Positions 22,814 to 49,606 of a DNA stretch of 64,000 nucleotides are shown here, in pieces. A model generated the notes under the pieces. It made no database searches. It saw nothing but the letters and a program-made list of their open reading frames with translations, and had not been told where the DNA came from. The stretch covers positions 65,771,417 through 65,835,416 of the forward strand of contig CM049319.1 of the NCBI GenBank assembly GCA_026874595.1, given 5' to 3'. Origin of the DNA: Sipunculus nudus (lineage: Eukaryota; Annelida; Sipuncula; Golfingiida; Sipunculidae). Within the stretch, counting starts at the first letter, position 1. Each line of letters starts with the position of its first letter. Both the position numbers and the translations under genes were made by a program.

Positions 22814-22832
22814 GTGGTTAGATTCTAACCAC

Positions 22833-22905: not shown

Positions 22906-22936
<31 letters not shown>

Positions 22937-23155: not shown

Positions 23156-23223
23156 TCATCTTCCAAGTAGCGCCAGGGCAGTCAGACCAAGGACGAGGAG
23201 AGGAGATCCTAGGGTGATACCGA
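23156..23223 (-). CDS. Gene B exon 11 (last): hydrophobic C-terminus and stop
   Basis: Terminal exon: TTTCCAG acceptor, phase 1 entry, 22 codons including TGA at 23158-23156. After a Gly-rich junction with exon 10 it encodes a hydrophobic tail, ITLGSPLLVLGLTALALLG, ending in Arg and stop. A hydrophobic stretch at the extreme C-terminus after small residues, with no cytoplasmic tail, is the pattern of a GPI-anchor signal. A very short-tailed membrane helix is the alternative. No clear AATAAA was seen before the (AT)n tract at 23108-23138. Confidence 0.87.
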
Positions 23224-24909
23224 CTGGAAAAAAAATATAATTTATATAAATACAGTATTCAGAAATAAAATTGTGAAATCTTCATGTTATGTCGTAATTG
23301 TCAGATACAGAACGGTGGTAATTTCTTAAATTCATCCGGATTCAATATAAATCTTTTATTTCTTGACATAGCTTTCAATTAATTTACGAGCGACATGACA
23401 GTACTCCGTTCAATTATTGTCCATTTCATAAAATATAATTTCTATTATGAAGTCCTCTAAAAATAAACGAACAATGTGCGAAACGCAAGCATGAAACATT
23501 CTCGCAAGAGGCGCTGTTTACAAACAAGCTTAAATTGTTTTTATAAAACTTTGTGACAACAAAAAATACTGTTTACAAGAAAGCTTCAGATTTTTTTAAT
23601 AATTAATAATTAAAAAATTCGGTTACACCAAAATGGACTGCATAACCCTCTTTACCATACTACCTTTATACCTACGCTGAGGATGTATTTAGATTCCGGG
23701 CTAGGAATAATCCAGAATTCATAACCTGTCGTTAAGACATTAGAGCGAATCGCCGATGTTCGATCAAGACCGCAAAAATTAGACCTGAGACCCTCTGTTC
23801 CGTTATCCAACGCCTTAACTACAACACTAGACTATTTCCTACCCCTGTTATGTTATTAATTTGCGGAATTTCGAGATCTGTCTTTATCAGTTTTGTCGTA
23901 CAGTACGAACGTTGGTGGTCGGCACAATATGTCATTATGTGTAATTATACTCTTTTTTTATCCAGATAATGTTCAGAACTGTTCAGATAATGGAGGTTCA
24001 ATTACAGAATACTCCTTGTCTCTTAAGCTTTTCGATGCTGCATAAATGAACATTTTGTCCAACTGATCAAGCCCGAAATTAACACACACACGCCTTGTTT
24101 TGCCGACCGTTCAGATAAGCGAGTTACAAATATAAATATATGTGATCTTTGTCATTCTTACTGTTCAGATCATTAACTGACATTATATTCTAGCCAAACG
24201 TATTTTAGTCCTGTATGTCCCGTTAATCATAGTTTTATTATATATACACCTATTATTTGTCCTCCTAATTGTCAAATAACTGAGGTTAATGTTATATACA
24301 AATAGTTTGTTTTAGTTCAGATTATTGAGGTTCGATTATTTATACATATACTCTATTACTTAGAATTTCAATTGTTCAGAAAATGAGGTTCCGAATATAC
24401 ATTCTCTTTGTCCTCAAAACTGTCCAGATTATCGAGGTCTTCTATTTAAACATAATAGGGGTTAATGGGGGGGGGGTCTATTCTAAACACACATACGCTT
24501 TGTCCTCATGACTGTTCAAACTATTCTGAATAAATATACTTTTAACTGTTAAACAACCGAGGGTTAAATTTGTACGTATACACTTATTCTTTTTTTTGCT
24601 AACTGTTAAGAATCCGAGGTTCGATCATTAATTCATATATCTTTCTAGCTGTTCGGATAAATGAGGTTCATTTGTAATTTTCAAAATGTTCTGAGAATCG
24701 AGCTTGAATCATTTATACATAAATCCTTCCACCTGTTCGGATAAATAAGTGGGTAATTTTCTAACTGTTAGGACAACCGAGGTTCAGTCATTAATATATG
24801 TATCTTTCCAGCTGTTCGGATATATAAATTCAAGTTCATTTTTAACACGTTTGTCATTTGAATGTAACGGATAACTGAGGTCGTTTTAAACAGATAACGC
24901 AGTTCTTAC
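23224..24909 (-). other. Gene B intron 10 with very degenerate ~60-bp tandem repeats
   Basis: From about 23945 to 24880 a motif such as CTGTTCGGATAA followed by GAGGTTC and an ATTCATATAT-CTTT block recurs roughly every 50-70 bp with heavy divergence. It runs almost up to the exon 10 donor. A degraded tRNA-like block (A-box-like TAGTTAAGGCGTTGG on the minus strand, about 23795-23809) may be an old SINE. No coding sequence. Confidence 0.55.
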
Positions 24910-25091
24910 CTCCGCCCACTGGGCCGTCCTGCGGTAGGGGCACAGTGGCCACCAGCTCACAGTTGTTTCCTTGGTTACCCAGCTGCTGTTGGAGCAGGGG
25001 CTTCACCATCTTATGAACCAGGTAGGCCTTCAAGGAGCATTTAGTAGATTCAGCGTCGTCAGACACACACTTCAGAACATTCTGGGCATCA
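24910..25091 (-). CDS. Gene B exon 10: second half of six-cysteine repeat 4 and Gly-rich stem
   Basis: Internal exon of 182 nt, phase 2 in and 1 out, with a CTTTAG acceptor and a GTAAGA donor. It supplies cysteines 4 to 6 of repeat 4 (LKC, then TKC after nine residues, then NNCEL). A short non-cysteine stem follows (VPLPQDGPVGGG), which would position the cleavage and attachment site for a GPI anchor. The C4-C5 spacing here is nine rather than the seven seen in the other repeats. Confidence 0.9.
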
Positions 25092-25612
25092 CTAAAGGAA
25101 GAGAGAGGTCGAGGTTACATATGTATGTCGTAAAAACTGCAGCATTATCCACAGAAGGAAGACAACGTTGTATATAATAAGAGACCGATGGGTCATGACG
25201 CTCAGCTGATTGCTATGCGGACAATCTTATGATCTACTGTAAAATAAATTAGTGCATGACATATGAATCTAGATTTAAAGTAATGAGTTAAAGTGAAAAA
25301 TGGAAAACATTTGGACGCAATTCTTTTGAGACAGGGACATTCCTATCTAGTAACTTTTTCAATAAATGGGGGACATGCCATATAATTGTATGTTTTGAAA
25401 CCCACCACTGACAATATGATTTATATTGAGAAATGTGTGGAGGCATAGAATAAACCGGTGGAGGTGCAACGGCTAGTGTGTGTGTGTGTGTGTGAGGGTG
25501 TGTGTGTGTGTGTAAGTGAGTCAGTGAGGGGGTGGGTGGGGGGGGTTTGGTGTGGTGAGTATGTAAGACTTTGTGATCAAAACATGTTCTCTCTCTCACT
25601 GAAGTTGAAGCA

Positions 25613-26616
25613 CCAGAGGCGTTATAAAACATCATATCAATAATACATCCATGATCAGCTGGCTTATCTGCCATCAGAGACGTTATAAAACATCATATCA
25701 ATAATACATCCATGATCAGCTGGCTTATCTGCCATCAGAGGCGTTATAAAACATCATATCAATAATACATCCATGATCAGCTGGCTTATCTGCCATCAGA
25801 GACGTTATAAAACATCATATCAATAATACATCCATGATCAGCTGGCTTATCTGCCATCAGAGGCGTTATAAAACATCATATCAATAATACATCCATGATC
25901 AGCTGGCTTATCTGCCATCAGAGACGTTATAAAACATCATATCAATAATACATCCATGATCAGCTGGCTTATCTGCCATCAGAGACGTTATAAAACATCA
26001 TATCAATAATACATCCATGATCAGCTGGCTTACCTGCCATCAGAGGCGTTATAAAACATCATATCAATAATACATCCATGATCAGCTGGCTTATCTGCCA
26101 TCAGAGACGTTATAAAACATCATATCAATAATACATCCATGATCAGCTGGCTTATCTGCCATCAGAGGCGTTATAAAACATCATATCAATAATACATCCA
26201 TGATCAGCTGGCTTATCTGCCATCAGAGATGTTATAAAACATCATATCAATAATACATCCATGATCAGCTGTCTTATCTGCCATCAGAGACGTTATAAAA
26301 CATCATATCAATAATACATCCATGATCAGCTAGCTTATCTGCCATCAGAGACGTTATAAAACATCATATCAATAATACATCGATGATCAGCTGGCTTATC
26401 TGCCATCAGAGACGTTATAAAACATCATATCGATAATACATCCATGATCAGCTGTCTTTTCTGCCAACAGAGACGTTATAAAACATCATATCAATAATAC
26501 ATCCATGATCAGCTGGCTTATCTGCCATCAGAGACGTTATAAAACATCATATCAATAATACATCGATGATCAGCTGTCTTATCTGCAACCAGAGACGTTA
26601 TAAGACATCATATCAA
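25613..26616. repeat. 61-bp satellite array, left block
   Basis: About 16 copies of a 61-bp unit (core CGTTATAAAACATCATATCA, then ATAATACATCCATGATCAGC and TGGCTTATCTGCCATCAGAGA). Copies are 95 percent or more alike by eye, so the array is young. It is interrupted at 26617 by a modular element and resumes in register at 28784. Confidence 0.97.
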
Positions 26617-28783
26617 CTAGACATTTCTTGGCACCGCAGGTGCCAGAGTATCCCGAGACATAGTACGGCCCCACCCCCTTTAAGAATAGGCCCGCATTTT
26701 TAGCAGCATATACTGACACCTGGCAAGCAATTATTGTTTCTTCCATCTATCAATCCACAATATTTTTGAAGATGTTGGTCCTGTGACCTTGACCTGTGAC
26801 CTCATGACCCCAAAATCAATTCGGGTCTCTTTCAATGGGACATATATAAGTCAAGTTTGAAATCTATACATCAATAAAAGCAGGAATTATCATCCAGAAA
26901 CTAATTTTTTGACAGATGGCTCCTGTGGCCTTGACCTTTGACCTTGTGACCCCAAAATTAATATTGATCATCCACTTTAATATATAAATCAATAGAGGTC
27001 TAGATTTATTGATGGGCCATATATAAGTCAGGTTTGAAATCCAAACATTAATCCAGGCTTGAATTATCATCTCGGGAACTAATTTTTGGACAGATGGCTC
27101 CTGTGACCTTCACCTTTGACCTTGTGACCTCACAATTGACAGGCGTCTTCCTCTATTGGCAGGGGAACTTTATGTGCAAGATGTAATGTCTGAGATGAAA
27201 TGTTTGGCTGAAAATGCATCCACAATTCTAAAGATGTGTCCTGTGACCTTGACCTTTGACCTCATGACTTCAAAATCAATTTTGGTCTTGCTTTTCCAAT
27301 GGGACATATACAAGTCAAGTTTGAAATCTATACATCAATAAAAGCAGGAATTATCATCCAGAAACTAATTTTTGGACAGATGGCTCCTGTGACCTTCATC
27401 TTTGACCTTGTGACCTCAAAATTGATAAGGGTCTTCCACTCTTGGCAGGTGAACTATATGTGCAAGATGTAATGTCTGAGATGAAATGTTTGGCTGAAAA
27501 TGCATCCACAATCTTTTTAAAGATGTGTCCTGTGACCTTGACCTTTGACCTCATCACCCCAAAAACAATTCGGGTCTTGCTTTTCCAATGGGACATATAC
27601 AAGTCAAGTTTGAAATCCATACATCAATAAAAGCAGGAATTATCATCCAGAAACTAATTTTTGGACAGATGGTTCCTGTGACCTTCACCTTTGACCATGT
27701 GACCTCAAAATTGATAAGGGTCTTCCTCCATTGGCAGATGAACTATATGTGCAAGATGAAAGGTCTGAGATGAAATGTTTGGCTGAAAATGCATCCACAA
27801 TCTTTTTAAAGATGTGTCCTGTGACCTTGACCTTTGACCTCATGACCCCAAAATCAATTGGAGTCTTGCTTTTACAATGGGACATATATAAGTCAAGTTT
27901 GAAATCAATACATCAATAAAAGCAGGAAATATCATCCAGAAACTAATTTTTTGACAGATAGCTCCTGTGGCCATGACCTTTGACCTTGTGACCCCAAAAT
28001 TGATATGGATCATCCACTATTGCCAAGTAAGCTATATTTTCAAGATGGAGACCTGGGATGAAAGTTTAGCTTAAAATGCATCCACAGTATCTTTTAAGAT
28101 GCGAGTCCAGTGACCTTGACCTTTCACCTAATGACCCTAGAACCTATAGGGTTCTTACTTTAGTGGTGGGCCATACATAAGTCACGTTTGAAATCCATAT
28201 GGCTATCAACACTGGAGATATCACAAGACGTGTGTGATTTTCACCAAATATGGACACATTAAAGGTCAAGGCCACTCTCATGGTAAAGGCCATGACCCAA
28301 ATGTAAATAGACCTCATCCCATAACCCATCTCTCAACATGTGCATAATATGAAAGAAATCTGTCCATTAGTTTTTGACTTATAATGCTTACAGTATGTAA
28401 GTGGCAATTATGGGGGTATTAAAAGGCGTAAAAAAAGAAAAGGATAATAGGTGGCGCCACCAGTTTCCGGTACATCACAAGGCTATCCAAGATCTTCGGT
28501 CACCTTGATTTTTGGACCAGTCCATGCAAGCTTATTTGAGATATTAAAGAATTTGTGTTATTTTCAGCAAAAATGGACCTATTCAAGACTCTCCTAGCAT
28601 AGGTCATGACCCCATTTGAAATAGGCTTCGTCCCCTTACCTATATCTATACAAATGTAAAGTTTGAAAAAGATCAGTGAAATATTTTTTGAGTTATCCCG
28701 CTCACAAGGTTTTTCTGCGGCAGCGGCGGCGGCGGCGGCGGGACCGTCATGAAACCATAGTATCCCGACTTTGTCTGGGGATA
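26617..28783. mobile_element. Modular hairpin-ended repeat element, copy 1
   Basis: This insertion splits the 61-bp satellite. It begins CTAGACATTTCTTGGCACCG (with a GGCACCGCAGGTGCC palindrome). It continues with several ~144-bp half units carrying TGACCTTTGACCT motifs, one GGTGGCGCCACC module and a (CGG)n tract, and ends in a hairpin GTATCCC-...-GGGATA. CAA flanks both sides. No protein is encoded; the many 60-70-codon frames are artefacts of the repeat period. The same element recurs at 54122-57306. Confidence 0.85.
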
Positions 28784-29061
28784 CAATAATACATCCATGA
28801 TCAGCTGTCTTATCTGCCATCAGAAACGTTATAAAACATCTTAGCAATAATACATCCATGATCAGCTGTCTTATCTGCCAACAGAGACGCTATAAAACAT
28901 CATATCAATAATACATCCATGATCAGCTGTCTTATCTGCCATCAGAGACGTTATAAAACATCATATCAATAATACATCCACGATCAGTAGTCTTATCTGC
29001 CATCAGAGACGTTATAAAACATCATATCAATAATACATCCATGATCAGTTGTCTTATCTGC
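28784..29061. repeat. 61-bp satellite array, right block
   Basis: About 4.5 further copies of the 61-bp unit, continuing exactly where the left block was interrupted. They end at TCTGCCA, where a TGGCGCTACC module-like sequence follows. These copies mostly carry AGCTGTCTTATC where most left-block copies have AGCTGGCTTATC. Confidence 0.93.
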
Positions 29062-30409
29062 CAAGATGGCGCTACCAGTCTTTAGTAAGAGAACAAGGTT
29101 CCGAGAACCTATGGGCGTGTTCAAGGTGTGACAACAAGATACAACAAGTGACCCATAGGACATAACGCTCAGCTGCCAAGATTCACAACTTCCAATCAAA
29201 TTTTTGAAGAACCATTTTGCCAATTTGTTGAAATTTTAACGACAGCAGAAATTTATATCACCTATGTCTGATTAAAACACAGTGAATTGATGGTCTGAGG
29301 AAAAATGTATGGAACTATTCACATATGTTGCTTGATACCTGTCAGTCTCAAAAGGAACACCACAAAGGGCAAATATAAGATCAAAATATTTAGCAATTAT
29401 CAAGGAAATCCTTGCAAGAATTATTGATAAACGGGTGCTTCTGTATGAATTTTTATTCAATACTAGCCAACTGTACTGCACTTTTATAAATGATGGTAAT
29501 ATTTATAAAGAAATATACGTCCGACCACGTTTACTTTAATAGTTCTTGAGATAATATGATCAAAGAGAATTTAAAGATGGTTGCCTGGTGGCCATATTGG
29601 ACTTCTGACAGGTCTGAAATCAGACAACAAACATTCTCTAAATCTGACCAAACATTGAAGAAAATCACTGAAACTGCACTGAAAAAAGGATTTCAAAGGT
29701 GGCTAACTGGCAGACATAATGGATTTCTGACAAGTCTGACATATGATATCACACATCCTCAAAAGAGACCAATCTTGGGGCGATTTCTCCAAAGGATGTT
29801 ACATTAATGAATGTGAAAAACAATTCAAAAGGCCTGTTAAGGCCCTCATATCGTATTTATGGATATGCAAATGTAAAAAGTGTTAGTCCAATATTTTATA
29901 TTATCACTCTATATTATCACTTTTCAATGGGGTCAGCAGGGTAGGAAAACTGCAAAACCTGAAAGAAAAGAAATGCAGAAAGCATGACTAAGAGTCTTGT
30001 ACTAAAAAAATTCCATCCTAATTCCAGGTACACATCCACATATTATGAGAACAAACACTTGCTTTTATATCTGGTGATTTATATAAAAATATTCAGATAT
30101 CTAGGAAACTAAGTTTATTGCTATGATTCCATGAAATAAACTGCAATATCTCCCATCATCTTATAAATCAGTAGCTAAACCTTAATACTATACTCTCATA
30201 GTTTTCATGCCTGGCTGAAGCATTCCGGCAACAGTGTTTTTATTATGCAGTAACGAGGTACTTTTCATTCAGCCTTATCATTTAATAGGCTGATACAAAA
30301 GGGAGTCAAATGCCACCAGTGACACTCACAATTTAAGCCACACAGTGAGATGGACCAGTTGGAGTGCAATCGTTTTATATAAGAAAAATACAAAATTAGT
30401 TATTGTGAA

Positions 30410-31450
30410 CATACCTGACCTATGACCTTGGCCTTCGCTCACATATCATATTCTTTCTAAATGATGGGTAACTACTAACCACTTAAATCGGTTGTTATCA
30501 CTTGACAACCAATTAGTGAATAACTTTGACCTGCAACCTTTAACCTCTTGACAAGCTGACAACAAAATCAATAAGTTATTTCTTCAAGCAAAAATACCTT
30601 TTATGAAGTTTGAATCAAATTTAGCGATGCATAGATGTGGCATATGTGAAAGACTGAAGGTTTGGGTTGAACAGTTTAACTTGAAATATGTTCACTAGCA
30701 TTTAGAACAATTAATATTGTGAACTTTGACCTTTGAACTCAACATCCATAGGCTTCTTTCCCTTTTGGTAGGTAAGTCATATATGACAGATGGATGTTAA
30801 AGATTAAAAAGTGTGCCTGAAAATGACTCCACGCAAGAAGTGGGTCTGTGAACTTAACCTTTGACCTTAAAATCAACAGGTCATTTCCCCTGTTTGCAGA
30901 GAAGCGATATCAGTGCTTGAAGGTTTGAAATATGTCCACGACCAGTTAATAAAAATGGATCTTGTGACCCCCACCTTTGACCCTGTGACCTCAAAATCTA
31001 TAGGATTCTTCTCCCACTTTATAGGAGAGCTATATGTGAAAGATCAAAGATTTGGGATGAAAGGTTTGGCTTAAAATGCTTCCAAAGGCTTTTCAAAGAA
31101 ATGGCTCCTGTGAACTTGACCTTTGACCTTGTAACCTCAAAATAATTATGGTTCTTTCCCTGTTTGTAGGTGAGCTGTATGTGAAAAATGGAAAGATTGG
31201 GATGAAACTTTTGGCTAAAAGAATTATTTCTTGGGGTGCAAACACACCCTGTAACTTCGAGAATATAGGTCACAGTGACCTAATTTCAGGTTTGCAAGGA
31301 GATCTTTTTAGTACCTCTAAGTCTGCATAGGGTTCATGACCCTTACGATGTGTGCCCTGCTAACGGACGGCCGGCCAGACGGAAGGACGACGCACAAAGA
31401 CCCATCGCTATAGCCTAGCATGATTGAAGGTCAGATGAGCTAAAAATAAT
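30410..31450. repeat. Older relative of the modular element
   Basis: Diverged units with TGACCTTTGACC/TTTGACCTTGT motifs are spaced along this stretch. It includes a perfect inverted AGGTCA-CAG-TGACCT site at 31268-31282 and ends with a GGACGG-rich segment and CCATCGCTATAGC...GATGAGCTAAAAA. The same tail occurs at 33030-33108. Confidence 0.65.
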
Positions 31451-31621
31451 GTGACAGGAAGCGAGTGTTACCGGCCTGTACCGTAGTCCAAATCCTTAAT
31501 GGATCTCTGCGGATTTACATATTAGTTAAAGAATTAGATCAGAGGGCATAAAAATGGAAGCGGTTACCTCCACCAAAAAAAAAAAGATCTTTAAAAAAAG
31601 AAAAAGAAGAGATTTCACCAT

Positions 31622-31697
31622 GATTATCACCGGCGAGATTCGAACCGGGGACCTTGGGCTTCGAAGTACAATGCCTTTTAAATGACATCATGCAGTC
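31622..31697 (-). repeat. tRNA-derived SINE fragment
   Basis: The minus strand carries GGTTCGAATCT, a good polymerase III B box. It is preceded by AAAAGGCATTGTACTTCGAAGC, which resembles the D-arm to anticodon region of many tRNA-derived invertebrate SINEs. The A box is degraded. It lies about 60 bp downstream of the gene B exon 9 donor, inside intron 9. It is too decayed and short for a functional tRNA. Confidence 0.6.
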
Positions 31698-31760
31698 CCC
31701 CCCCCCCCCTCCCCCCCGTTATTTCATACCTGATTTTTACATATCATAAAGAGTACTTGC

Positions 31761-31830
31761 CTGCAGGTCGATAGTGAGCCTGTCATACATTGAGAGTTGA
31801 TCATTTGTTCAGGAGGAAGTTTCTGACAAT
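31761..31830 (-). CDS. Gene B exon 9: first half of six-cysteine repeat 4
   Basis: Internal exon of 70 nt, phase 1 in and 2 out. Acceptor TTTTCAG; the donor is CAG|GCAAGT, a GC-AG intron with otherwise perfect consensus. It encodes cysteines 1 to 3 of repeat 4 (DCQKLP, C2 after twelve residues in SQC, then STC). Both flanking joins keep frame, which supports the GC donor. Confidence 0.86.
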
Positions 31831-32445
31831 CTGAAAATTAAAGAAATCTTTAAAATGGTAGGCAAGGCTCAGCTTAAAATACGATTATGATTATGCTGAT
31901 TACGCTACATATCGAGGACTGTTCATCTATTTCATGATAAATATAGGGAGTGAGACTAATTTTCGCGGAATTCGATCTCGATCTCAGAGATCGTGCTCTC
32001 GGCCTCGGTCTCGAAGCACAAATGGATTTGGTGTCTTTCCTGTCTTCGAATTAGAAAGAGAAGTTCTGGTTTTTTAATGTATACACTGTGCATGATTGAT
32101 TTTTCTCTGCTTGTACAGTCTCCTTCTTAAGACACCGCTTGGTCTGGCAGTAACATAACATTAACTGATTTTCAAGTTATGAAAATATGTTCTCTGGAGT
32201 AATTAAGAGTTGAGTTTATCTGGTCCCGTTTCCTTCTTATATTAATAGGCCTTAGCCTGGTCTGGGATTACATGGTCCAGTGAAAGAAAAACGGGTATCT
32301 ACGGTAACACGTACCCTGCTACAAAATCAGCGCCACCTGTAAATACAAATAAAGGATGAGTATAAATTAACGAACATTTAAAAAAGTTAAAATCAGTTTG
32401 AGTGTGGTTATCCCTTAAAAAATATTGGAATATTTTGCAGCTTAC

Positions 32446-32580
32446 CTGGATCACACTGGAATCTCATCATCCTATTCCAAGACTCTGGGACGACTGCTCC
32501 ATCTGAGGTCATCAGGTTCATTGCCTTGAACATGAGTTGCATAAGGCCGGCACCGGGATTTTGGCCTTCGCCAGATGGCG
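32446..32580 (-). CDS. Gene B exon 8: spacer and last cysteine of repeat 3
   Basis: Internal exon of 135 nt, phase 1 in and 1 out, TTTTAG acceptor and GTAAGC donor. It is the only symmetric exon in the gene. It encodes a Gly/Pro-rich spacer (SGEGQNPGAG), then a helical Met-rich stretch (LMQLMFKAMNLMT), and ends with FQCDP, the sixth cysteine of repeat 3. Repeat 3 is therefore split by one more intron than the others. Confidence 0.88.
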
Positions 32581-32755
32581 CTAAAACGTTTTTTAAACCT
32601 GTAAATAGAATTGTCGATACAGATATTACAATGATGATAATGATAACAATTATAATAATAAAGAAGAAGAAGAGGAAAAGGGACCTCTGGGTCACTGCGA
32701 ATTTTGCCCTGTTAACAGACGACCGCATCTTTAAAGGTAAAAAAAATTAGAGAAA

Positions 32756-34240
32756 ACAAAAAAATACAGGTGGCTCCACCAGTCTGCAGGAACTGATAAC
32801 ATACTCCATGATCAATATGCATGCGAAGAATCATGGTGAACAATTTATTAGTTGTTCAGATATTGGAACTTTTGCATGAAATTTATAATTATTCTGGGGT
32901 TTTACTTCTGAGCCCAACAGCTCATGGTATATGGGTAACAGAGACCCAAATTCACGTTTCCTAGAATTTTTTTCATGGACCTCCCTGGATGTCAAGGGAG
33001 AAGATTCCAGGTCCAGCGGATACGATTTGTGTTCAGATGGCCGGACGGACGACGGCCAAAGAGTAATCGCTATAGCTCAGATGACTTACAGTCAGCTGAA
33101 CTAAAAATGTATAAAAAAAAGAATAAAATAAAGGTGGCGCTACCACTCTCCAGGAACTGAAGAAACCAATCATAATCAATAAACTCACTGGGATTAAGGA
33201 CTATGGATGAAACTACATCTGAGAAACTGACATAACTGCTGTCATTTGATGGTCTCAAAAACAGAAAAAATTAAAAACTAGAATACGGGTAGTCGACAAG
33301 CGACTACGTGTATCCGCAAAAATCAGAGTAGGACGGGTGAAGTGAGGCATGGATTGAGTGGCAAGGGAAATAGAGTTACATGTGTTACATATTAGAATGG
33401 ATCTCAGCCACATAAACATGATTGTAGGTGGCACCACCTGTTATTTGAACGAGAAACTATCCAAGATGTATACACATGCATAATTTCAGGTGGAAAAGTC
33501 AAACCACTGCACAGATATGAGTGATTATATCCCAAAGCAGACAAATAGATGGACGCTGTGCAAAAATTGCTGCAGGTGGCGCCACCATTTTTGTGTATGT
33601 TATAAAGCTATCCAAGGGCTACATTTGTGTAATTTTTTTTCCTGATTGGTCAAACGAGTCCGTAGATATAAGCATGGATGTCTACAGCATGAACGTGAAT
33701 GTAGGTGGCGCCACCTATCATAAAATCAAGAAAGCTATGCGGGATGTATATGCATGCCGAATTTCAGGTAATTTGGTCAAACCACTGCAGAGATATGAGT
33801 GATTTTAACCCAAGGCAGATGAACAGATTGACACGGTGCAAACATGGTTGCAGGTGGCGCCACCTTTTTAGTGTATGTAGCCATCCAAGTGCTACATTTG
33901 TGTAAAAAAAATTCCTGATCGGTCAAACGGTTCCCGAAATATGTGGGTTTATGTGTGGAAACAGACGCTCAAACGGACGCTGGGCAGAGAGGAAAGGTCA
34001 GAGGTCAAGGCCACTTGGTTAGGCGCCAGTTCACATGTGACCCGATAATTTGTGTAAGTTTCGGAAAATCCGTCCAGTAGTCTCAGAGGAGTTCTCCGGA
34101 AACCAACGCGGCGGCGGCGGCGGCGACGGCGGAACCCAGTCAAAAACATAGTATCCGCAAAACTTCGTTTTGGCGGATACAATTACGGGTGGCGCCACCC
34201 GTTTTCCGGAACTTATAAAACTGTTCATAATCAATATTCA
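32756..34240. repeat. Cluster of GGTGGCGCCACC modules, with a hairpin-ended element
   Basis: The palindrome GGTGGCGCCACC, or a 1-2 base variant, recurs at about 32766, 33130, 33428, 33577, 33704, 33852 and 34191, each heading a ~130-150-bp module with a shared CTATCCAAG block. From about 33278 the modules form an element beginning CTAGAATACGGGTAGTCGAC and ending with (CGG)n and the hairpin GTATCCGCAAAAC-TTCG-TTTTGGCGGATAC (34151-34180). No protein coding. Confidence 0.75.
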
Positions 34241-37285: not shown

Positions 37286-37371
37286 CTTCAAAAATATCCA
37301 TTCCCATGCATTTCTTCATTTCCCTTTGTAAGCAGGCCATCGTGTCGCCAATGTTGACGTTGTTCATCATC
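37286..37371 (-). CDS. Gene B exon 7: cysteines 4-5 of repeat 3
   Basis: Internal exon of 86 nt, phase 2 in and 1 out, TTGTAG acceptor and GTAAAC donor. It encodes MMNNVNIGDTMAC, then C-x7-C ending MKKCMGMD. This is the conserved C4-x7-C5 feature of the repeat. Met content is high, as in the neighbouring exons. Confidence 0.88.
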
Positions 37372-38487: not shown

Positions 38488-38632
38488 CTGCATAAGGCTG
38501 CTTGCCGCGACATGTTGAAACTCATTAAACCCTGGAACCGTGGGTCCTTCATCAAATTCTGATAATTGTCTCCTTGGATACCCAAGGCCTCCATCATGTC
38601 TCGAACACAACCCTGCAGTCCTTCACAGTTTG
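38488..38632 (-). CDS. Gene B exon 6: first half of six-cysteine repeat 3
   Basis: Internal exon of 145 nt, phase 1 in and 2 out, CCAAAG acceptor and GTACGT donor. It encodes NCEGLQGC (C-x5-C), a long helical insert (MMEALGIQGDNYQNL) and AALCR, giving cysteines 1 to 3. The insert between C2 and C3 is the longest of the four repeats. Confidence 0.9.
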
Positions 38633-39303: not shown

Positions 39304-39479
39304 ATGGATTTGGTCCGGGGCCGGAACCGGAATCAGTCGGGGCACCCTCGATTACGATGCTGCAGCCATTTTGGTTTGCCAAGGAAACACTCTTCGCAAA
39401 CATTTTCTTGTAATTTTCAACTGCAGCAGGACAGTTGTTGGTGGCACTCCATGCACACTGGGCTACTGTTTGTGTCATC
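39304..39479 (-). CDS. Gene B exon 5: second half of six-cysteine repeat 2
   Basis: Internal exon of 176 nt, phase 2 in and 1 out, TTTCAG acceptor and GTAAGT donor. It encodes AQCAWSATNNC (C4-x7-C5), a helix (ENYKKMFAKSVSLANQ), NGC (C6), then a flexible Gly/Pro/Ser linker (TDSGSGPGPNP) separating repeat 2 from repeat 3. Confidence 0.92.
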
Positions 39480-40235
39480 CTGAAATTAGGACATAATAAC
39501 TTAATAAATTATGGTGCTCTATAGACCTTGACCAATGACAAGTCCACCTGATTGGTGGTGGATAAAGAGTAAAGTGGAAAAAGGAAGGACTTAGGGTCAG
39601 GTAATATAAAAAATATCCAAAGATCAGGTAAAGGTGAAGATAAGATGTGGTATGGTCAAGTACAGGAAGGTAAAGGTAAGGATTGGTTACGGTATCCTAT
39701 AGTAAATCTAGGTGTACTGTAATGTATCGAATAGACGCAATGAGGGCTAGGTTCGGCAACAACGCCGAAAAGTACGGGTAAGGTAAGTAAACGTAAACAA
39801 CTTTAAAAAAAAGTTTCGATCGGATTTCAAGAAATTTTGTGAAGCGTAATATGTCACCCCTTTAATGGAACAACACCTTAAATTTTGGATGTAATCCGGA
39901 TCACCATAATATATTATCAATTCAAAGGACAATATAGTTTTGTGACACAGGGCGATTCCATTATTCCCGGGGAAACTGTCCAATTCATACTTATTAGGAA
40001 CATCATTTGATAAGCAACAGATCAAGTGAACCCGTTCCACTGACTCGTGACAACACAAAAAAGGTTGTCTAGAGGATCCTGGCCGATCATTTCAGTAGTC
40101 ATAGTTTCCACAAAATTTTCTCATGTAAAAATGTCAGAAGAAATTTAACTGAAAAAGATTAATTACAAAGAAAGACAAAATCACCAAAAATAATAAAATT
40201 ACAAAGATAAATGTTATACTCTGGTACAAACTTAC

Positions 40236-40329
40236 CGACATATATCTTCTTTGCCCTGCCCTTCCATGCCTTGCATTTGTTTGCTGCACTCTGCCATTGC
40301 CATAATTTCAGCTTGGCAAGTTTGGCCAC
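40236..40329 (-). CDS. Gene B exon 4: first half of six-cysteine repeat 2
   Basis: Internal exon of 94 nt, phase 1 in and 2 out, CACAG acceptor and GTAAGT donor. It encodes TCQAEIMAMAEC (C1-x9-C2) and, after a charged Gln/Met/Gly-rich segment, DICR (C3). It is the shortest first-half exon apart from exon 9. Confidence 0.9.
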
Positions 40330-41903
40330 CTGTGTGATTAGACAGATATGCTTATAATATACATACTTTAAGAAGAACGAAATTAAAGAATTACAAGTTA
40401 AGGATCATTTAACTGGATCTTTCGTGCAATGAACGCCAAATCTCATTTTAAATTGGGACTACGTCGGTCGATCTATGACCGTACAGATTATCAGCCAACA
40501 AATGCCGGATGATTAACACCTTAGCATGATCGATATAAAAAAAATGACATTTAAACTTTGAATAAAGATTGATTTGAAGCATTTTGAGAATAAAATAACA
40601 GGGAAAAAGTGTTGCTTAATATTAAGAGGTTAACATTTTCCCCTTAAAATTCTAATCCATAAAACATGCATGATTTTTTTTTATTTGAGCGGTGATTGGC
40701 CGAGTACCATGCACGATGTCGTGGTAAGGTAGTAATTCACTCATATATCAGTCATTTTGTTATTTTATTCATTTCTGTGATACATTTTTGTTAATAACCT
40801 TTTACTAATTGCAGTGTGAGTCTATATTTAATACAATATCAATTTCATTTAATTTGCGAAATGTGGTGGTGATGTGTGGGTGTGGGGGGGGGGGGGTTAT
40901 AGCAAGATACATCCCCCCTTTTGAAAACGTGTCCCCCATCGAATTACGCCCATGCAAACTTTTACTTTAGCCTAATCAGATTTGGTCAGTGGCTGCAGGT
41001 AACTCTGCTCGGCGAGACTAAGAACCTGTCTTGGCTATCGGGGGCGCAAAATGACGCAGTGGACGGGCTTTACCCCAAACCCGTCCCTCCCCTACGCCCT
41101 TCGATTGCAAATTGTTACCGAAATTGTCAAGATAAGATTCTCGCCAGTGTTATAATATGTTAATACATGTTGGAAGCATATCTGTCAATTTTTATTCACG
41201 CATTATACGCGAAAGGGTTTTCAGACGACAAACGGGTCGAATACTTTGATCCAAAGCGCAATCACGCAACAAATATATTGTTCGATATACTTCGTGTCCA
41301 AATTTACCACTTATTTGGATAAAACCAGCCGGATGTTCTCCCTAGTATACAAATGACTGGACGTTGCGTTAGCTTCAATACTTATAAATTCTTTGGGCCA
41401 GTGTGCGCATATAATTTATATTGTTGAAGCAAATCCTAATGTTAAAGTCCTTATATTGATGGGTTGCAGTCCACTCAGCCAGAATGTAATTTCAACACGG
41501 TTTTACTGTTCATGCCTGCGCTATAACTGTAACTGCCAGCATTTACGACATCATCGAACCATGCTAGGTATGCACACAAGAATTTTACAGACTATTCCCT
41601 CGAAATCGGTTGTATCTGTCCAGCCGCGTGATTCCGGCAATTTCTCGGCAGCGATTGATCCAACCGCTCTAAACCTAAGCTCTTTGCAGATATACGTCGT
41701 TAGAGTACTTTTGTGGCGTATTTACGTGAACTCGTTAAACATTTTCTTTCCATCGTTTTTCCCCCTTTTTCGTGTAGATTAAAATATCGCAAGTCTTATA
41801 GCAGTAGGAATGTTACCAAGAAGTGCAAGTTGGTTGTCGGAATACCGCTGGTTTAGTAGGATAAAAAAATGACCTTACTTTTCCTAAATTAAAATTCACT
41901 CAC

Positions 41904-42049
41904 CCTCACTGCACATAGTGTCATACTGTGCGTATCCTTTCAATGAATCCTCAAGTGCTTTACTGAATGTCTCCTTCATTGATCCATCACAGGTCGCTAT
42001 AACACTCTCCATACACGAACGGAAAGCCGGGACGGCCTCCTTGAGAGCC
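41904..42049 (-). CDS. Gene B exon 3: second half of six-cysteine repeat 1
   Basis: Internal exon of 146 nt, phase 2 in and 1 out, acceptor CCGTGCAG and donor GTGAGT. It encodes ALKEAVPAFRSC, C4-x7-C5 ending ATC, a helical stretch, and YDTMCSEG (C6). It aligns with gene A exon 3. The acceptor lies only about 20 bp from an (AT)n tract and 70 bp from the Penelope element, so the branch point may sit in recently inserted sequence. Confidence 0.92.
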
Positions 42050-42064
42050 CTGCACGGAGGAACG

Positions 42065-42065
42065 G

Positions 42066-42116
<51 letters not shown>

Positions 42117-42118
42117 TA
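42065..42118. repeat. (AT)n at Penelope 5' end
   Basis: AT tract between gene B exon 3 and the Penelope leader. A shorter tract (44698-44716) lies at the other end of the element. Confidence 0.95.
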
Positions 42119-42244
42119 TAGGCCATAGAGCACCTTACATCGGAGGGTAACACTACCTTCTACTCCAGCTCCAGCGACAGGTACGTTGTCGAGCACTTTT
42201 GTTAACCCACCCCGTCCTGAAATTCAACTTAAAACATCTTCAAA

Positions 42245-43454
42245 ATGATCAAAGCTAACTTAAACTACTCTTTGAAAAACATTCCCATCCCTAGTAATCT
42301 GTCCTACACCAAATCCCTGATAAGTAAATTTGAAAGCCTACTTCGGAGAATGCGATGGAAGGCATTCCATTTTGAAAACCCTGGTCAAACTTCAGCTAAA
42401 CAAAACTATGGATTCAAAACCACATATTCACCCCCTCATAGCGAACACCTCAGGGCATTTGAAAGTGATATCTATGAAATGGTCCGGAACATTGAATTTC
42501 AGAACTCACACAATGCATTCCAGAGACAAATGGCCAATGACATCAAGACAATCAGACAATCTGACAATCTCCTAGTACAGGCAGATAAGACCACCAACCT
42601 GAACAGTATGCCGAAAGAATACTACAATAAATTTCTTACAGAAAACATCACTAAGACATACAAAAAAGCAGACAAAAATATCTGTAAAAATATCAATACA
42701 GAAGCCAAAGAAATAGCCGGTTCCCTTAACCTAGCAGACCGCATCGAAGTCATGGCCGAGCGCAATGCTTACATTACTTTGAAAGACCACAAGGATAATT
42801 TCGAACAAAACCCCAAGTGCAGATTGATAAATCCAGCAAAATCTGAAATAGGTATCATTAGCAAAAAGCACTTGGAAAAAATTCATAGCCAACTGAGACT
42901 GAAAACCAAACTCAACCAGTGGCAAAATACCGCACAGGTAATATCTTGGTTCAAGAAATTGAAGCTGAAACAAAAATCAAAGTTCATAAAGTTTGATATT
43001 GTTGACTTTTACCCCTCGATCACAGAAGATCTTCTCATGAAAGCCCTCAAATTTGCCAAAACCATGGTCTCCATTCCAGAGGATGTTATCAAAACCATCC
43101 TGCACAGCAGGAAAAGCTTACTGTTTAGCAACGGTAACAACTGGGTGAAAAAAGATCATACTAGTTTTGACGTTACCATGGGCAGTTTTGATGGCGCTGA
43201 AGTATGCGAAATTAGGCTATCATTAGGCAGATACCTATGATGATCAGCAAACGTGTATCTGACAACTCCTGCAATAAAGAGCTATTTATGAAAGCCAAAC
43301 CCATGTATGACAAAGCTTTAGCGAAAAGCGGGTTCTCAGAAAGCTTAAAATATGTTGAACCCACAGTGAAAAGCAAAAGAAACAGGAAAAGGGAATAATA
43401 TGGTTTAATCCACCCTACAGCCGTCATGTAAAAACCAACATTGGCAGACAATTC
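42245..43454 (+). pseudogene. Penelope-type reverse transcriptase, deleted for the catalytic core
   Basis: 331-codon frame (42245-43240). Visible RT features are KCRLINPAKSEIG, motif A FIKFDIVDFYPSITEDLL with its Asp, and MGSFDGAEVCE near the end. The expected motif C with the two catalytic aspartates is missing. Immediately after, in another frame (from 43222), comes the downstream segment QIPMMISKRVSDNSC, so a large internal part was deleted. A further frameshift near 43400 leads to WFNPPYSRHVKTNIG, typical of the RT-endonuclease linker of this class. Confidence 0.88.
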
Positions 43455-43979
43455 ATGAAACTAGTTGAAAAACACTTCCCTCAACATCACAGGTACCACA
43501 GGTTATTCAACAGGAACAATTTGAAAATTAGCTATAGCTGTCTACCCAACATGTCTAACCTGATCAGCAAACATAATATGAAGGTTTTAAATACTGACAA
43601 TGCTGTGAATGTACCTCAAAAACAATGTAACTGCCGTAAAAAAGACGAATGTCCTGTGAATGGTCAATGTCAGCTGAAATGCATTGTCTATAAGGCAACA
43701 GTTAGAACAGACAATGACGTGAAACACTACATAGGGTGTACTGAAGGTGATTTCAAGACAAGATACAATAACCACAAGCAATCCTTTCGGAACAGATCCC
43801 ACGCTAAAAATACTGAACTGTCTAAACACATTTTGTCACTAAAAGACAACAATATCAATTACAAGCTCTCCTGGGAAATATCTGCCAAGGCAGCACCTTA
43901 CTTCTGTGGGACTAGGAAGTGTGATCTCTGCTTGTCTGAAAAGCTACTTATAGCAACGGCCCCATTGGATCATTGTTGA
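43455..43979 (+). pseudogene. GIY-YIG endonuclease domain of the Penelope element
   Basis: 174-codon continuation. It begins with a cysteine cluster CNCRKKDECPVNGQC of the sort that precedes the nuclease in Penelope elements. The GIY-YIG fold follows: IVYKATV, HYIGCTEG (YIG), the catalytic Arg region FKTRYNNHKQSF and the Glu in TELSKHI, then YKLSWEI. Catalytic residues look preserved, but it is cut off from an intact RT. It is not a host gene. Confidence 0.88.
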
Positions 43980-44625
43980 ACTCAAGAGCTGAAATTCTCT
44001 CCAAGTGCCGCCATCAAAACAAATTCACCCTGAAATATTTTAAAACCTAGCATTGGTACTAATAATCCGCGTGCCCCCTTAACCCCCCCCCCCCCCCAAC
44101 GAGGATCCGCTGGGCAGACTTGCCTGTTCAGGTAGTTGTTCTCTCACTGCTTTGCAGTGATGAGGGACATGGCGTTACCATTACATCATGGTGAGTTTAC
44201 GGAGTGGATTGCATTTGGTATGAGTATAGTATAGTATATTTGCCTTTTATATTGTATATTTGCTTTGTATATTGTGTATTTTCATAGTATATGTGTATTT
44301 TTATCATATGTATACTACTGATATGTTCACTGCTTCCAAGAACCTATTAGAAATCAATTCAATATGCTAATTAAGCATCCTGGTATACATCTTTGTATTA
44401 TATATAAAATTTACAACAATAAATAACCTCTTTGCCCTGCCCTGTTATGTTCCAGTATCGCACGTGTACCCCGACCAATCCTATTGTGCACCCGAGGACA
44501 ATAGGATCAGTGTCAGTCTTTCACATGCCCCCCCCCCCCCCCGCCCCGAATCACACAAAGCATAATCTCGTAATCTCGTAAAGTCTTGGCTTTTCAAAGC
44601 ACGCCGTTAGCTTCATTCTAATCAC

Positions 44626-44673
44626 ATTCACCTGATGATCGGGTCCCATCCCGTGAAACAAACTGTTGTGAAT
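44626..44673 (+). ncRNA. Hammerhead ribozyme at the Penelope 3' end
   Basis: Second, diverged example of the ribozyme at 22.8 kb. Stem I is ATTCAC/GTGAAT, the core CTGATGA (44632-44638), stem II CGGG/CCCG with loop TCCCAT, then GAA and stem III ACA-AAC-TGT. Differences from the other copy fall in the loops of stems II and III while every pairing and core base is kept. That pattern is what a folded functional RNA would show. Confidence 0.85.
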
Positions 44674-44722
44674 TATCAGTGTTGTTTTTCTTCAGAGTTA
44701 TATATATATATATATAAATCAA

Positions 44723-45838
44723 GAATACGGGTAGTCGACGAGTGAAAACGTGTTACAGACGAAATCAGGAGGGCATTTATTTATTCAAGGTGGCACCACC
44801 TGCCTGGTTTATAAAAACAAAACTCTAAGCTGAATGGACATGCCAAATTTCAGACCAATACCTTGAACCATCTTGAAATATGAGCAATTTTCACCAAAAG
44901 TACATGTACGGATGAACCCGCGAAAACGACTGCAGATGGCGCCACCAGTCTTGTTTGTAAGATGGAGGTGTCGAGAATCAATGTACATGCATAATTTCAA
45001 CCCGATATATTGAAGAACCAATGAGATGAACAGATGGCAAATGCACAAATAGACGCTTAGCAAAAAGTATTGTAGGTGGCGCCATCAGTTTCCATAACGG
45101 GATGGAGAGATCCAAGATCTATGGACATGCAAAGTTTTAGCTTAAAGGGCCAAATCACCTATATGACCTTTATAAACTACAGATTCCCTTGGAGCTATCA
45201 TAAAAATAGGTAAGAAAACGTTGATATCACCGCATACAGGCTGCTTGTTTTGTTTATATCAACGTGTTTATAATATGTAGGAGCCTGCCATAACAATCAA
45301 AACAAATTCAACAAGGGCATCTAGCAGCAAGTCAATAAGCCAGAGCTTTGCAAATGGCGTTTTGTAACGAGTGACCTTTTTACCTCCGCATAAATGCAAA
45401 CTACCACCTAAGGTTACATGTTTTCCCGTTTTTCAACATTGCTGTGTTTACAAATATGTTGTTGATAAACAAGTTCACACATCATTCACGAAGGCCTTAT
45501 AAGAACTTTTTCACACCAAAACTTCCATTTAGATGATTAACAATACACAAGAGTAAGCCAGGAATAAAATAAATTCTTTTTTAAAAGGTAAGTGATTAGG
45601 TACCTTTAATACATTGAACCACTCCTAAGGTAGGGGTTGTCTTAAAGACACCAAGATTCGTACTGCATTGAAAGGATTGTAGGTGGTACCACATGTATTT
45701 GGTACGCACAACTATATAGGTGAGGGAACAACTGTGCGAGATTTCGGAAAGATCGGTCAAAGAATCTCAGAGGAGTTCTTCGAAAACGAAAGTGGCGGCG
45801 GCGGAACCCGCGCAAAAACATAGTATCCGCAAAACTCT
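44723..45838. repeat. Hairpin-ended GGTGGCGCCACC module element, copy 2
   Basis: Starts GAATACGGGTAGTCGAC like the copy at 33.28 kb. It carries GGTGGCACCACC, ATGGCGCCACC, GGTGGCGCCATC and GGTGGTACCACA modules at about 44789, 44937, 45074 and 45681, then a (GGC)n tract and CATAGTATCCGCAAAAC. The terminal hairpin is cut short. About 45140-45640 is unrelated, possibly an insertion. Confidence 0.7.
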
Positions 45839-46278
45839 GTTAATATTTCTGTTGAGTTTCATCAAAATGCATCATATTCCTAGTAAATAATCGTGGAGAC
45901 ACCATAGACCCTGGTGACCTCTGACCTCATTCAGCTAAGTTATTCAAATTCCTTATTAATATTGTAGAAGACAACTATTCAGGAAAATGTTAGAACGTAT
46001 GTTTAGAGAAGGACACATTGCTTAATAATATAAAGTTCTAATGTTATGTCTTCGGGAATGGCAGTGCTGTAAGGGTAAGGAGTGCGATTTTAAAACCTTG
46101 TAATTGATGTATTGGTTATTCCTTAGTTGATAAGCCGGGGTATTGTCACTTTTCATCAGCAGACAAGTTTAATTGAAATTTCTTTAAACCACTGAGGGAG
46201 CAATGAGCCTTAATATTATAAAAACCCTGTGAAGTGACTTCTGCAAACATGACTTTGGCCTGTAGCCTTTAATGTTTA

Positions 46279-47065
46279 CAGTGAAAATCTCCCCTTAATC
46301 GGACACTCAAGGACTGGAGGATTTTGTCCGTTTTAGTGAGTCGTCCTGTATAAAGCGGTTTGGCATATTGCGTCAGTTTGTCATTGAATGTTTCTGATAT
46401 CCTATGTTTTGATAAAATGTACGCCTTATTTGAAATAGGCTACATAAATTTGATTTAAATCATTTTCAAAATAGCTTAAATATGCCCTTACAATTTTTAA
46501 AACATAAATATTAATAATATATATAATATATACTAGTATTATTTTAAGATAGGTAGATTAACATCAGCTAGGCATACTGAAGATTGATAATTGACAGCAT
46601 CCGGACAGCTAATTACTTGTTAAAGGATAGTCTTTATACGCATTCACCATACAAGGTGCGAACTGTCGCAAACTAATTACGGCTCCCCGGGCCCGACGCC
46701 GATCACCAGGCACGAACGGCAGTCTTTGATGGTGGTCTTGTCAAATGTAAAACTGTTTCAGTTTGAAGGCTTATGTTTCCTAATTTACCTATCAATCTTA
46801 ATTTAATAATGATCGTGTTACACATTTACAGAAATAAACAATAATTTCGACCATATATTCCAAAGGTTCAACGGGCACAACGCTTGTCGGGCTGTCGCTT
46901 CGACCAAAACAGGTCATACGAGGTCATGACCTCGGAGCGCCATCTCCTGGCAAATATATGAACATAAATTAGAATATAGAGGCAAATTTGAAGGGACTGA
47001 AGTTTAGTGTCCGCATTGGTGAGTTGACCGCCTTACTGAGTTGTCTGTAAGTAGGAGTTTCACTG
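46279..47065. mobile_element. TIR element with TA target duplication
   Basis: Left end CAGTGAAAATCTCCCCTTA and right end (read inverted) CAGTGAAACTCCTACTTACA, each flanked by TA. The sequence just inside the ends also matches in part (GTCCG, TTAGTGAGTCG on one side; GTCCGCATTGGTGAGTTG on the other). The size (787 bp), TA duplication and ACAGTGAAA ends suggest a non-autonomous Tc1/mariner-type element. No transposase frame is visible. It resembles the small element at 22955-23106. Confidence 0.65.
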
Positions 47066-47478
47066 TATGTTAAATATAAAAGCAAAGGAGTGATTTGTTA
47101 CTGAATTACGAAGATTAAATTGAATTAAAGATCAACCTAGGCTGTCTAGGGACAATTTAGGGTTTCGCCAGTTTAGTGCTTTTTTTTTTAGCCTTGCTCA
47201 AGGAAAGAGGACGTCCTTAATTACTGTGCCCGGGTATTAGATTAACTGACACCTGACTTCTTCTTGAGCGTTCATATATGTTAACCGGACATGCCTGTTA
47301 TCTCGTAGATACAGAACTCCCGGGTATACGTGATACCAGGTCCATATTCATGTCCGTTGGTGAAATGGCTTATATATTGATTTAATACTGGGGTCTCATA
47401 TGTGCCATGCACTTAGTGTACTCATCGAAGCAGCGCCCCAATATGAAATCGACAAGCATCACGATTCGTGTGCCGTCT

Positions 47479-48280
47479 GTAACAGGCCAGATTATTCCCC
47501 CTGCCCAGTTTATACCCGGGTATAAAACAGCCTAGGCCAGAATATACCCCGGGGTATATTCCGGCCTAGGCTATTTTATACCCCCCTAGGCCAGTTTATA
47601 CCCCCACATGCAATCAGGTTTCACTGTTATTTAATTTATCAAAGTTGATATAATAACAAATTTCAATGTTATCCATAAAATGATATAACCGATCTGATTA
47701 AACACATGTACTCTCATGCATTTTCAATCACAAACACACACCTTAGGGTTACACACATACACATATATATGTAATCGAGTAGAAGCCTCGTTATTTTACA
47801 TATTTTTTGTATTTATTGATACTATAAACTGAGAAAAACTGATTTAAAATGTTTGCTTGCTCATGGAATAATGACAGCAGACTGAGAGGATAATTCTCTA
47901 TAATTATAATCTTCTTAAATTTATGGACGAGTAACAGTTTTTGTAATGCCTGCTGTAAGCACTCATAAACCATGCATCTTTCTGTTACATTAACCTTATA
48001 TTGATATATAAGTCCAGTATGAGGCCTTAATTGAATTGTTACAATTGTAACGTCAACATTATTTTTCCAGACTAAAGTGCATGATATTTTTCCCTGAATG
48101 TTCATACCACTGAGATGACCGCATTAAAATGACAACCGATATTTTCTAAATATATCGCTCGTTCGGTTTTTCTCTGGAGGTCGAAGGACGCAGGATAAGT
48201 GAGCCACTGCCATGAATTTCTTGTGTTCTTTTTGGCTTCAATTGTGGTGATCTTATACATCCAAATGTACACTATACATA

Positions 48281-48332
<52 letters not shown>

Positions 48333-49183
48333 TATGTATGTATATGTGTACGTATGTATATCTGTATGTATGTATATGTATGTATGTATATGTATGTATA
48401 TTTATATATAGTTATATGTACATAAATATATATGTATATATGTATATGTATGTAGATATATGTTTTGATGCACTCTATTCATTTAGTATGTTTAATACCA
48501 TAATGTCGATTGTGGTCTATGTATTATTCAGATTACCAATCTCAGGAAGCCCCCCCCCCCCCCCCAACCCCACGATCCACCTCAGGGACCCCCCCCCTCC
48601 CCCACCCTAAGGAAACCACCTCACAGAAACCACTATCTCCTAGAGAAACTCAAGCCTCAGAGAAGCCCCAAACAATCATTATAATTATTACTTGCATGCA
48701 TGAGAACATGCAGGCATAATGAAGTTATTTAAGTTCATACAAGACAAAACTTACAAGTATACATACTAACATAAATGCCGCAAATAGAATTAATATTAAT
48801 AACACGAAAACTGAGTTTTAGCTATATCGTTAAAAAAACAGTTCTTATTTTATCAGACACAATGACTAAGTCCATATAAAATTGAGTTTTAGCTATATCG
48901 TTAAAAAAAACAGTTCTTATTTTATCAGACACAATGACTAAGTCCATATAAAATTAACTATTGTGTTAAGCATAGCAGTTTTTTATTGATATATATCAAA
49001 GATGTTAGAAGCAACAAGGGGGTATAATCCAGCCCAGAGGGGTATAAAATAGACTGGGCTAGATTATACCCCGGGGTATAAAATAGCCTAGCCCGTTTTA
49101 TACCCGGGGTATATTCTGGCCTAGGCCAGTTTATACCCGGGTATAGAATAAGGGGGGGGGGGGGGGTTATTCTGGCCTATTAC
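47479..49183. mobile_element. 1.7-kb element with palindrome-dense inverted ends
   Basis: The left end GTAACAGGCCAGATTATTCCCCC matches the inverted right end GTAATAGGCCAGAATAACCCCCC. Both ends contain clusters of GGCCTAGGCC and TATACCCCGGGGTATA palindromes within 130-170 bp. The interior is AT-rich with an (AT)n tract (48284-48326), a poly-C tract (48551-48565) and a 71-bp tandem duplication (48813-48955). It has no recognisable transposase. Non-autonomous DNA element, class unknown. Confidence 0.65.
48813..48955. repeat. 71-bp tandem duplication
   Basis: Two adjacent near-identical copies starting GAGTTTTAGCTATATCGTTA, differing mainly by one base in an A run, so the duplication is recent. 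Confidence 0.95.
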
Positions 49184-49491
49184 ACCGTCACTGTCCTCGT
49201 ATAAGGTGCGTGTCGCAGCGAATTGCCCTCATCGAATTCTGACAGGTTTGTTTCTCAAAGTTTCTCAAAACAGCTCATGGGGGCTGCCATTTGAAAACAA
49301 ACTAAAACACGGATGTCACAGGGCTCATGTCGACTTTACGGGTATACTGCTAGTAAAAATGTGATTAATATCATAAATTATTTAAAATCAAGCTTATACT
49401 TATTTTACCTGTGAACCTTTAATTACTTAAACCTGTCGCATGAACGCTGTGCGCTCCACTGGGTGCATTCAAGTTGTAACTGTGTACTTAC

Positions 49492-49606
49492 TGACAAAAT
49501 TGCCCCATATCGCCGCTGGGAGTGCCTATTCTTGAAGTTAGGATTTTCTGGCAGTTCATCATGGCGTCGCTGTCACAGGCAGCTTCGCCCATGGCCACCA
49601 ATACCC
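49492..49606 (-). CDS. Gene B exon 2: signal-peptide end and first half of six-cysteine repeat 1
   Basis: Internal exon of 115 nt, phase 1 in and 2 out, acceptor TTTTACAG and donor GTAAGT. It begins with hydrophobic residues (VLVAMGEAA) that would finish a signal peptide. It then gives CDSDAMMNC (C1-x7-C2) and QFC (C3). Length and phases match gene A exon 2 exactly. The upstream exon with the start codon was not found up to 64000. Confidence 0.9.

Follow-up and report, generated by a model that had tools for sequence, protein, structure and literature searches.

Gene B and its six-cysteine repeats

The 64,000-nucleotide (nt) window of the Sipunculus nudus genome analyzed here (C14:65771417-65835416; positions are given in window numbering, negative values lying left of the window) holds two loci on the minus strand, named gene A and gene B, which probably are tandem genes for secreted, membrane-anchored proteins built of six-cysteine modules. 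Gene B exons were placed by splice sites and reading frame and then joined. Ten minus-strand exons run from 49606 to 23156, and joining them in phase gives a protein of 410 amino acids (aa). An AG acceptor was found at all ten exons and a donor at all nine exons requiring one (GT at eight, GC at exon 8). The exon phases are, in order, 1>2, 2>1, 1>2, 2>1, 1>2, 2>1, 1>1, 1>2, 2>1, and 1>stop. A previous sequence-only reading of this stretch had described a chain of ten exons in perfect phase. All ten were located, both ends match to the base, and neither a stop nor a phase break occurs; the count itself holds for the window, while the gene probably comprises 11 exons if a candidate signal exon outside it is included.

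The spliced protein contains 24 cysteines (5.9% of the 410 aa), which fall into four sets of six. The proposal that each repeat is written by an exon pair, one carrying C1-C3 and the other C4-C6, was borne out, and the phase-2 intron interrupts the codon directly after C3 in 4/4 repeats. The gaps between successive cysteines are 7-18-12-7-25 in repeat 1, 9-15-8-7-22 in repeat 2, 5-38-13-7-55 in repeat 3, and 12-7-8-9-25 in repeat 4. The spacing C4-x7-C5 in three repeats (1-3; repeat 4 has x9) and an additional symmetric exon in repeat 3 (here found to carry that repeat's C6) were likewise both observed as described before. Based on spacing, two kinds of module can be told apart, alpha (C3-x12/13-C4) and beta (C3-x8-C4).

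In the direction of transcription, the first in-window exon (49492..49606), probably the second of the gene, encodes the end of a signal peptide together with C1-C3 of repeat 1, an alpha module; C4-C6 of this repeat follow at 41904..42049, an exon with two predicted helices. Repeat 2 (beta) is encoded at 40236..40329 (C1-C3) and 39304..39479 (C4-C6 and a Gly/Ser/Pro linker), and resembles modules A3 and A5 of the neighboring locus. The C1-C3 exon of repeat 3 (38488..38632) also contains the sole N-glycosylation sequon, NMS, and is followed by the C4-C5 exon (37286..37371) and the extra C6 exon (32446..32598). Repeat 4 (beta) comprises a C1-C3 exon with the GC donor (31761..31830) and a C4-C6 exon with a linker (24910..25091). 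The last exon (23156..23223) ends the protein with a hydrophobic tail and the stop. The exons were assigned from splice sites and translation.

Two features of repeat 3 bear on splicing. Skipping of the symmetric exon at 32446-32598 (-) would preserve the frame and lose C6. At the C4-C5 exon the frame stays open beyond the donor as far as a GTAAGT at ~37200 (-), a possible alternative exon end, but this donor would give a phase-0 exit and thereby interrupt the chain.

The 114 kb upstream were searched for start-to-donor exons ending in phase 1, using a signal-peptide filter that we devised. Three candidates passed, of which an exon at 85347-85314 (-), ~21 kb outside the window, was rated best. 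It encodes MKGLLLASVLA, which continues into GVLVAMGEA-ACDS of the first in-window exon, and with it gene B would have 11 exons, a product of 422 aa and a first intron of about 35.7 kb. An in-window scan with looser signal filters listed many candidates, none of them convincing for gene B. Gene A has its signal exon within the window, encoding MKTMAARTLCLILSL plus ALPALSLA. These candidate signal exons of both genes support the earlier proposal of secretion, and the gene B product is very probably a secreted cysteine-module protein. Anchoring by glycosylphosphatidylinositol (GPI) had been proposed as well. The last exon indeed encodes a short hydrophobic, GPI-signal-like tail after a GPVGG stretch (hydropathy over 15 residues 2.03); from this tail we infer the anchoring itself, which we consider a likely prediction.

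Gene A and the module cluster

Gene A was picked up with queries made from repeat 1 and lies in tandem with gene B on the same strand. Its signal-peptide exon (11987..12032, -) was placed by sequence and phases and is followed by an exon with the signal peptide end and C1-C3 of module A1, an alpha module (6023..6137, -), and by the C4-C6 exon of A1 (2361..2503, -). The phases of these exons (0>1, 1>2, 2>1) reproduce the layout seen in repeat 1 of gene B, and the cysteine gaps of A1 are 7-20-12-7-25 compared to 7-18-12-7-25 in that repeat.

The search for module exons was extended to flanking sequence, 150 kb on the left side and 100 kb on the right (314 kb with the window). Exons of four further modules, A2-A5, all on the minus strand, were found to the left of the in-window part of gene A. 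Module A2 (alpha; -2966 or -2990 to -3092, and -17233 to -17378), the first half of A4 (-21632 to -21794) and A5 (beta; -33820 to -33919, and -34413 to about -34570) were detected by an exon signature, while A3 (beta; about -19960 to -20062, and -21037 to -21212) was found by eye and has GTCAG-type donors. A possible second half of A4 (-23575 to -23663) and, after A4, a potential terminal exon that soon reaches a stop (near -24470 to -24560) are candidates. Downstream of A5, a possible GPI-like tail at -38735 to -38814 is one of nine hydrophobic candidates listed. Modules A2-A5 may belong to one gene A with two possible 3' ends, or to two genes.

The signature comprised two exon types, both with fair splice sites: phase-1 entry, three cysteines and phase-2 exit directly after C3 (type 1), or phase-2 entry, C-x6-10-C-x17-40-C and phase-1 exit (type 2). 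On the minus strand of the 314 kb it returned 19 rows corresponding to 14 distinct exons, all between -34597 and 49669; the plus strand of the same 314 kb and the minus strand outside this interval yielded none. The signature had been drawn from nine of the 14 exons, seven in gene B and two in gene A; the other five had already appeared in a first 50-kb scan before it was broadened slightly. The clean controls are therefore the plus strand and the remainder of the minus strand, both empty, and by these the exon pattern is more than chance.

Modules were compared by cysteine-anchored alignment against shuffles keeping the cysteines; repeats 1, 2 and 4 of gene B are called B1, B2 and B4. The alpha trio B1, A1 and A2 is alike beyond the cysteines, with 0/1000 shuffles as good in each of the three pairs. 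Among the beta modules the same holds for A5-A3 (0/1000), A5-B2 (1/1000) and A3-B2 (0/1000), and C4-A-W-x5-C5 is common to A3, A5 and B2. B4 shows a weak likeness to B2 (25/1000) and none to A5 (128/1000) or A3 (420/1000). For the 12 alpha-beta pairs, z was -1.1 to 2.3.

Along gene B, the C3-C4 gaps are 12, 8, 13 and 8, so that its modules seem to alternate alpha-beta-alpha-beta, repeat 3 being alpha from spacing only. The gaps between modules are 6, 21 and 3 residues. Taken jointly, the four repeats show weak likeness beyond the cysteines (61/2000 shuffles as good). As likeness among them peaks at a distance of two modules, it suggests, together with the gap pattern, an alpha-beta double unit. 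The last doubling in gene B may accordingly have copied a four-exon double module; at the residue level this is supported by repeat 2 with repeat 4 (25/1000), but not by repeat 1 with repeat 3, which have no likeness beyond the cysteines (285/500). Growth by duplication of a two-exon module, as first proposed, is in line with the common intron position and with a neighbor made of the same modules, and can be refined in that two module kinds alternate.

The whole assembly (1.43 Gb, 153 contigs) was also searched with single modules. At E 0.001, A1 found itself alone; A2 found itself, A1 (E 1.08), B1 (E 4.58) and one stray match; A5 found A3 (E 0.001) besides itself and nothing else. These three queries thus gave no clear copy beyond the cluster, but their sensitivity was low, as A5 missed even B2 and B4.

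The locus contains several repeats. Two adjoining frames (331 and 174 aa; 42245-43979, +) lie in a gene B intron, ~200 bases from an exon; they resemble a Penelope-like retroelement, and Pfam at 0.01 matched nothing in them. Pieces of a long terminal repeat-type retroelement, with a SCAN domain, a weak zinc knuckle and an integrase core, lie between the gene A signal exon and gene B (13072-17135, -). One gene B intron contains a 61-base tandem repeat at 25614-26616 (16.4 copies) and 28784-29063 (4.6 copies), with a block of a different repeat between. A 289-base tandem repeat rich in TGACCTTTGACCT occurs at 27012-28199 (4.1 copies) and, 26 kb apart, at 54295-56651 (8.2 copies). Near-identical stretches at 22733-22910, where they form an inverted repeat, and 44620-44700 end in GTTGTTTTTCTTCAGAGTTAT beside TA runs.

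Faint likeness to the N-terminal domain of repulsive guidance molecules

Weak matches of single modules pointed to the N-terminal domain of repulsive guidance molecules (RGMs), a family that includes RGMA, RGMB and hemojuvelin. The Pfam model RGM_N (PF06535, curated cut-off 24.2 bits) matched B1 (E 0.026-0.032, 15.2 bits) and A5 (E 0.075-0.17, 13.7 bits), both under the cut-off; further models also matched modules weakly. Such E-values from a handful of queries are near chance expectation, and further RGM tests were made because of this.

The cysteine spacing agrees in part. RGM_N and the modules have six cysteines in the same order, and human RGMA and RGMB have C3-x8-C4-x7-C5-x21-C6, compared to x8-x7-x23 in A3 and A5 and x8-x7-x22 in B2; C3-x8-C4-x7-C5 is thus identical in the human proteins and these three beta modules, and C5-C6 differs by one or two residues. 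B4 has x8-x9-x25, the alpha modules B1, A1 and A2 have x12-x7-x25, and the RGM of the host itself has x8-x8-x21. When a profile of the four beta modules was compared to 177,635 PDB sequences (E up to 10), two were listed, a CRISPR Cmr2 protein (E 0.012) and then RGMA (E 1.1), in register from C3 to C6.

The similarity extends beyond the cysteines in shuffle tests. In hhalign comparisons to RGMA and RGMB, none of 100 cysteine-preserving shuffles was as good as the beta profile, the alpha profile or all seven modules together; for A5 and A3 alone the figure was 2/100 and for an earlier four-module set 1/100. With the host RGM added, residue shuffles were as good in 1/150 (beta), 1/150 (alpha) and 0/150 (all seven), and column shuffles in 0/150, 1/150 and 0/150, respectively. 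Among 21 pairs of single modules and RGMs, A5-RGMA (0/1000), A3-RGMB (0/1000) and B1-RGMA (5/1000) stood out. RGMs are GPI-anchored (PMC7354924), and gene B has its GPI-signal-like tail.

A number of results weigh against this kinship. Pfam returned zero matches to the spliced 410-aa protein, no Pfam or NCBIfam model reached its cut-off for any module scanned, and for A5 an unrelated IL27B FN3 model (E 0.0048-0.0099) outscores RGM_N. RGM was not listed when the alpha profile was compared to the PDB sequences. Paired with each of the three RGMs, A1 never exceeded its shuffles and A2 did so with RGMA alone (26/1000), and hhalign found no link between the alpha and beta kinds (81/100 shuffles as good). 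With a hidden Markov model (HMM) of three vertebrate RGMs, the modules did not stand out among 7810 reading frames, A3 coming highest of them in third place (E 0.72). Module by module, own shuffles scored as high in 0/300 (A3), 7/300 (B1) and 23/300 (A5), and B2, B4, A1 and A2 received no score. When the genome was scanned with RGM_N, the host's real RGM was found (E 2.9e-11) and no module was among the 12 matches, although the modules are split between exons. In the host RGM, RGM_N lies in one undivided exon with C4-x8-C5, and the intron after C3 and the exact x7 are therefore not common to both. A single domain in one exon there contrasts with several modules here, most of them intron-split after C3; moreover, RGM_C follows RGM_N in the host RGM (E 9.3e-23), while gene B has no RGM_C match. 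As the reverse tests with the RGM HMM and the RGM_N genome scan fail, RGM_N kinship is the best lead, but not a membership. We give the modules about an even chance of having an RGM-N-like fold.

The strongest alternative is a lineage-specific, helical six-cysteine domain without RGM kinship, whose spacing and C-x-A-L-R stretch would result from convergence or from selection among many weak matches. The lack of any model above its cut-off and the negative reverse test and genome scan would be expected of such a domain, most RGM alignments span only C3 to C5 or C6, and the RGM lead was chosen after scanning 24,736 models. Yet the same RGM_N model was matched by one alpha and one beta module, cysteine-keeping shuffles were as good in only 0-1/150, and the beta profile listed just two PDB sequences, one of them RGMA. 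We regard this explanation as a serious one, somewhat short of an even chance.

The modules could also be divergent relatives of arthropod DUF1397 (PF07165, cut-off 25.7 bits), the 27 kDa hemolymph glycoprotein, in which case gene B would encode an unanchored, secreted ligand carrier of the body fluid. A1 does match this model, the only weak one it has, locally over C3-C5 (E 0.025-0.029, 14.4 bits), a further point against the RGM lead, but below the cut-off; no other module scanned matched it, the genome scan gave a single match elsewhere (E 9.8), thus no clear one, and gene B ends with a hydrophobic tail, which makes a carrier of this kind improbable.

Other families have a similar architecture. 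Prosaposin contains four six-cysteine helical domains, the saposins, in one precursor, as gene B has four six-cysteine repeats, but the cysteine spacing differs from the saposin consensus and no saposin model was among the Pfam matches. GDNF receptor alpha and GAS1 have GPI-anchored, helical, cysteine-rich repeats, while no GDNF-domain model was among these matches. That gene B is a pseudogene or a mis-joining of chance open frames, as its very long introns (one with retroelement-like frames) and GC donor might suggest, is hardly credible given ten exons free of stops and phase breaks, 14 signature exons on one strand versus 0 on the other in 314 kb, and a neighbor with the same layout.

Proposed fold and function

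Fold prediction was performed for the second half of repeat 1 (C4-C6), the corresponding gene A segment serving as alignment. It gave two helices (2-18 and 23-46; mean predicted local distance difference test 89.2, predicted template modeling score 0.63), with C4 inside the first helix, C5 past its end and C6 at the end of the second. The sequence-only reading had expected helical domains; the high-confidence prediction agrees and covers this half-module. Structural comparison of the half-module returned generic helical hairpins, which are common. The predicted hairpin fits what an RGM-like bundle would need: according to PMC7354924, the N-terminal domain of RGMs consists of three bundled helices with three disulfides and is needed for the effects of RGMs on signaling by the bone morphogenetic protein (BMP) family members BMP2 and GDF5. 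According to PMC11167000, one groove of BMP ligands receives a helix from TWSG1, from RGMs and from other proteins.

Gene B would then produce a protein of ~422 aa that starts with a signal peptide and ends with a C-terminal anchor signal; between them would lie four small helical modules, arranged alpha-beta-alpha-beta. Each module, with three disulfides presumably formed within it, would fold as a three-helix bundle like the RGM N-terminal domain (PDB 4uhy, 4uhz). Because the gaps within alpha-beta pairs are short (6 and 3 residues) and the Gly/Ser/Pro linker between the pairs is longer (21), the modules may pair up into two compact double domains with a hinge between them. GPI anchoring would display the protein at the cell surface, where the chain of bundles could expose several helix faces, to which a secreted ligand or a partner carried by another cell might bind. 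We see the chances as evenly balanced for the proposed module fold combined with surface display. A ligand-binding co-receptor or trap would be the likeliest use, though well short of an even chance; adhesion and immune recognition are other possible uses. More specifically, an RGM-N-like domain binding BMP-type ligands may have left RGM, gained the intron after C3 and multiplied into GPI-anchored tandem arrays, which would act as multivalent traps or co-receptors of the transforming growth factor-beta (TGF-beta)/BMP family and be missed by current family models. This full scenario we consider unlikely.

How a disulfide-rich protein grew can be read from this locus in its two-exon modules, one fixed intron, two alternating module kinds and neighboring genes. 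The modules faintly resemble the BMP-binding domain of RGMs. If the link to the RGM N-terminal domain is true, multi-domain relatives would be added to a domain that is single in RGMs, and which ligands such arrays bind would become a directly testable question.

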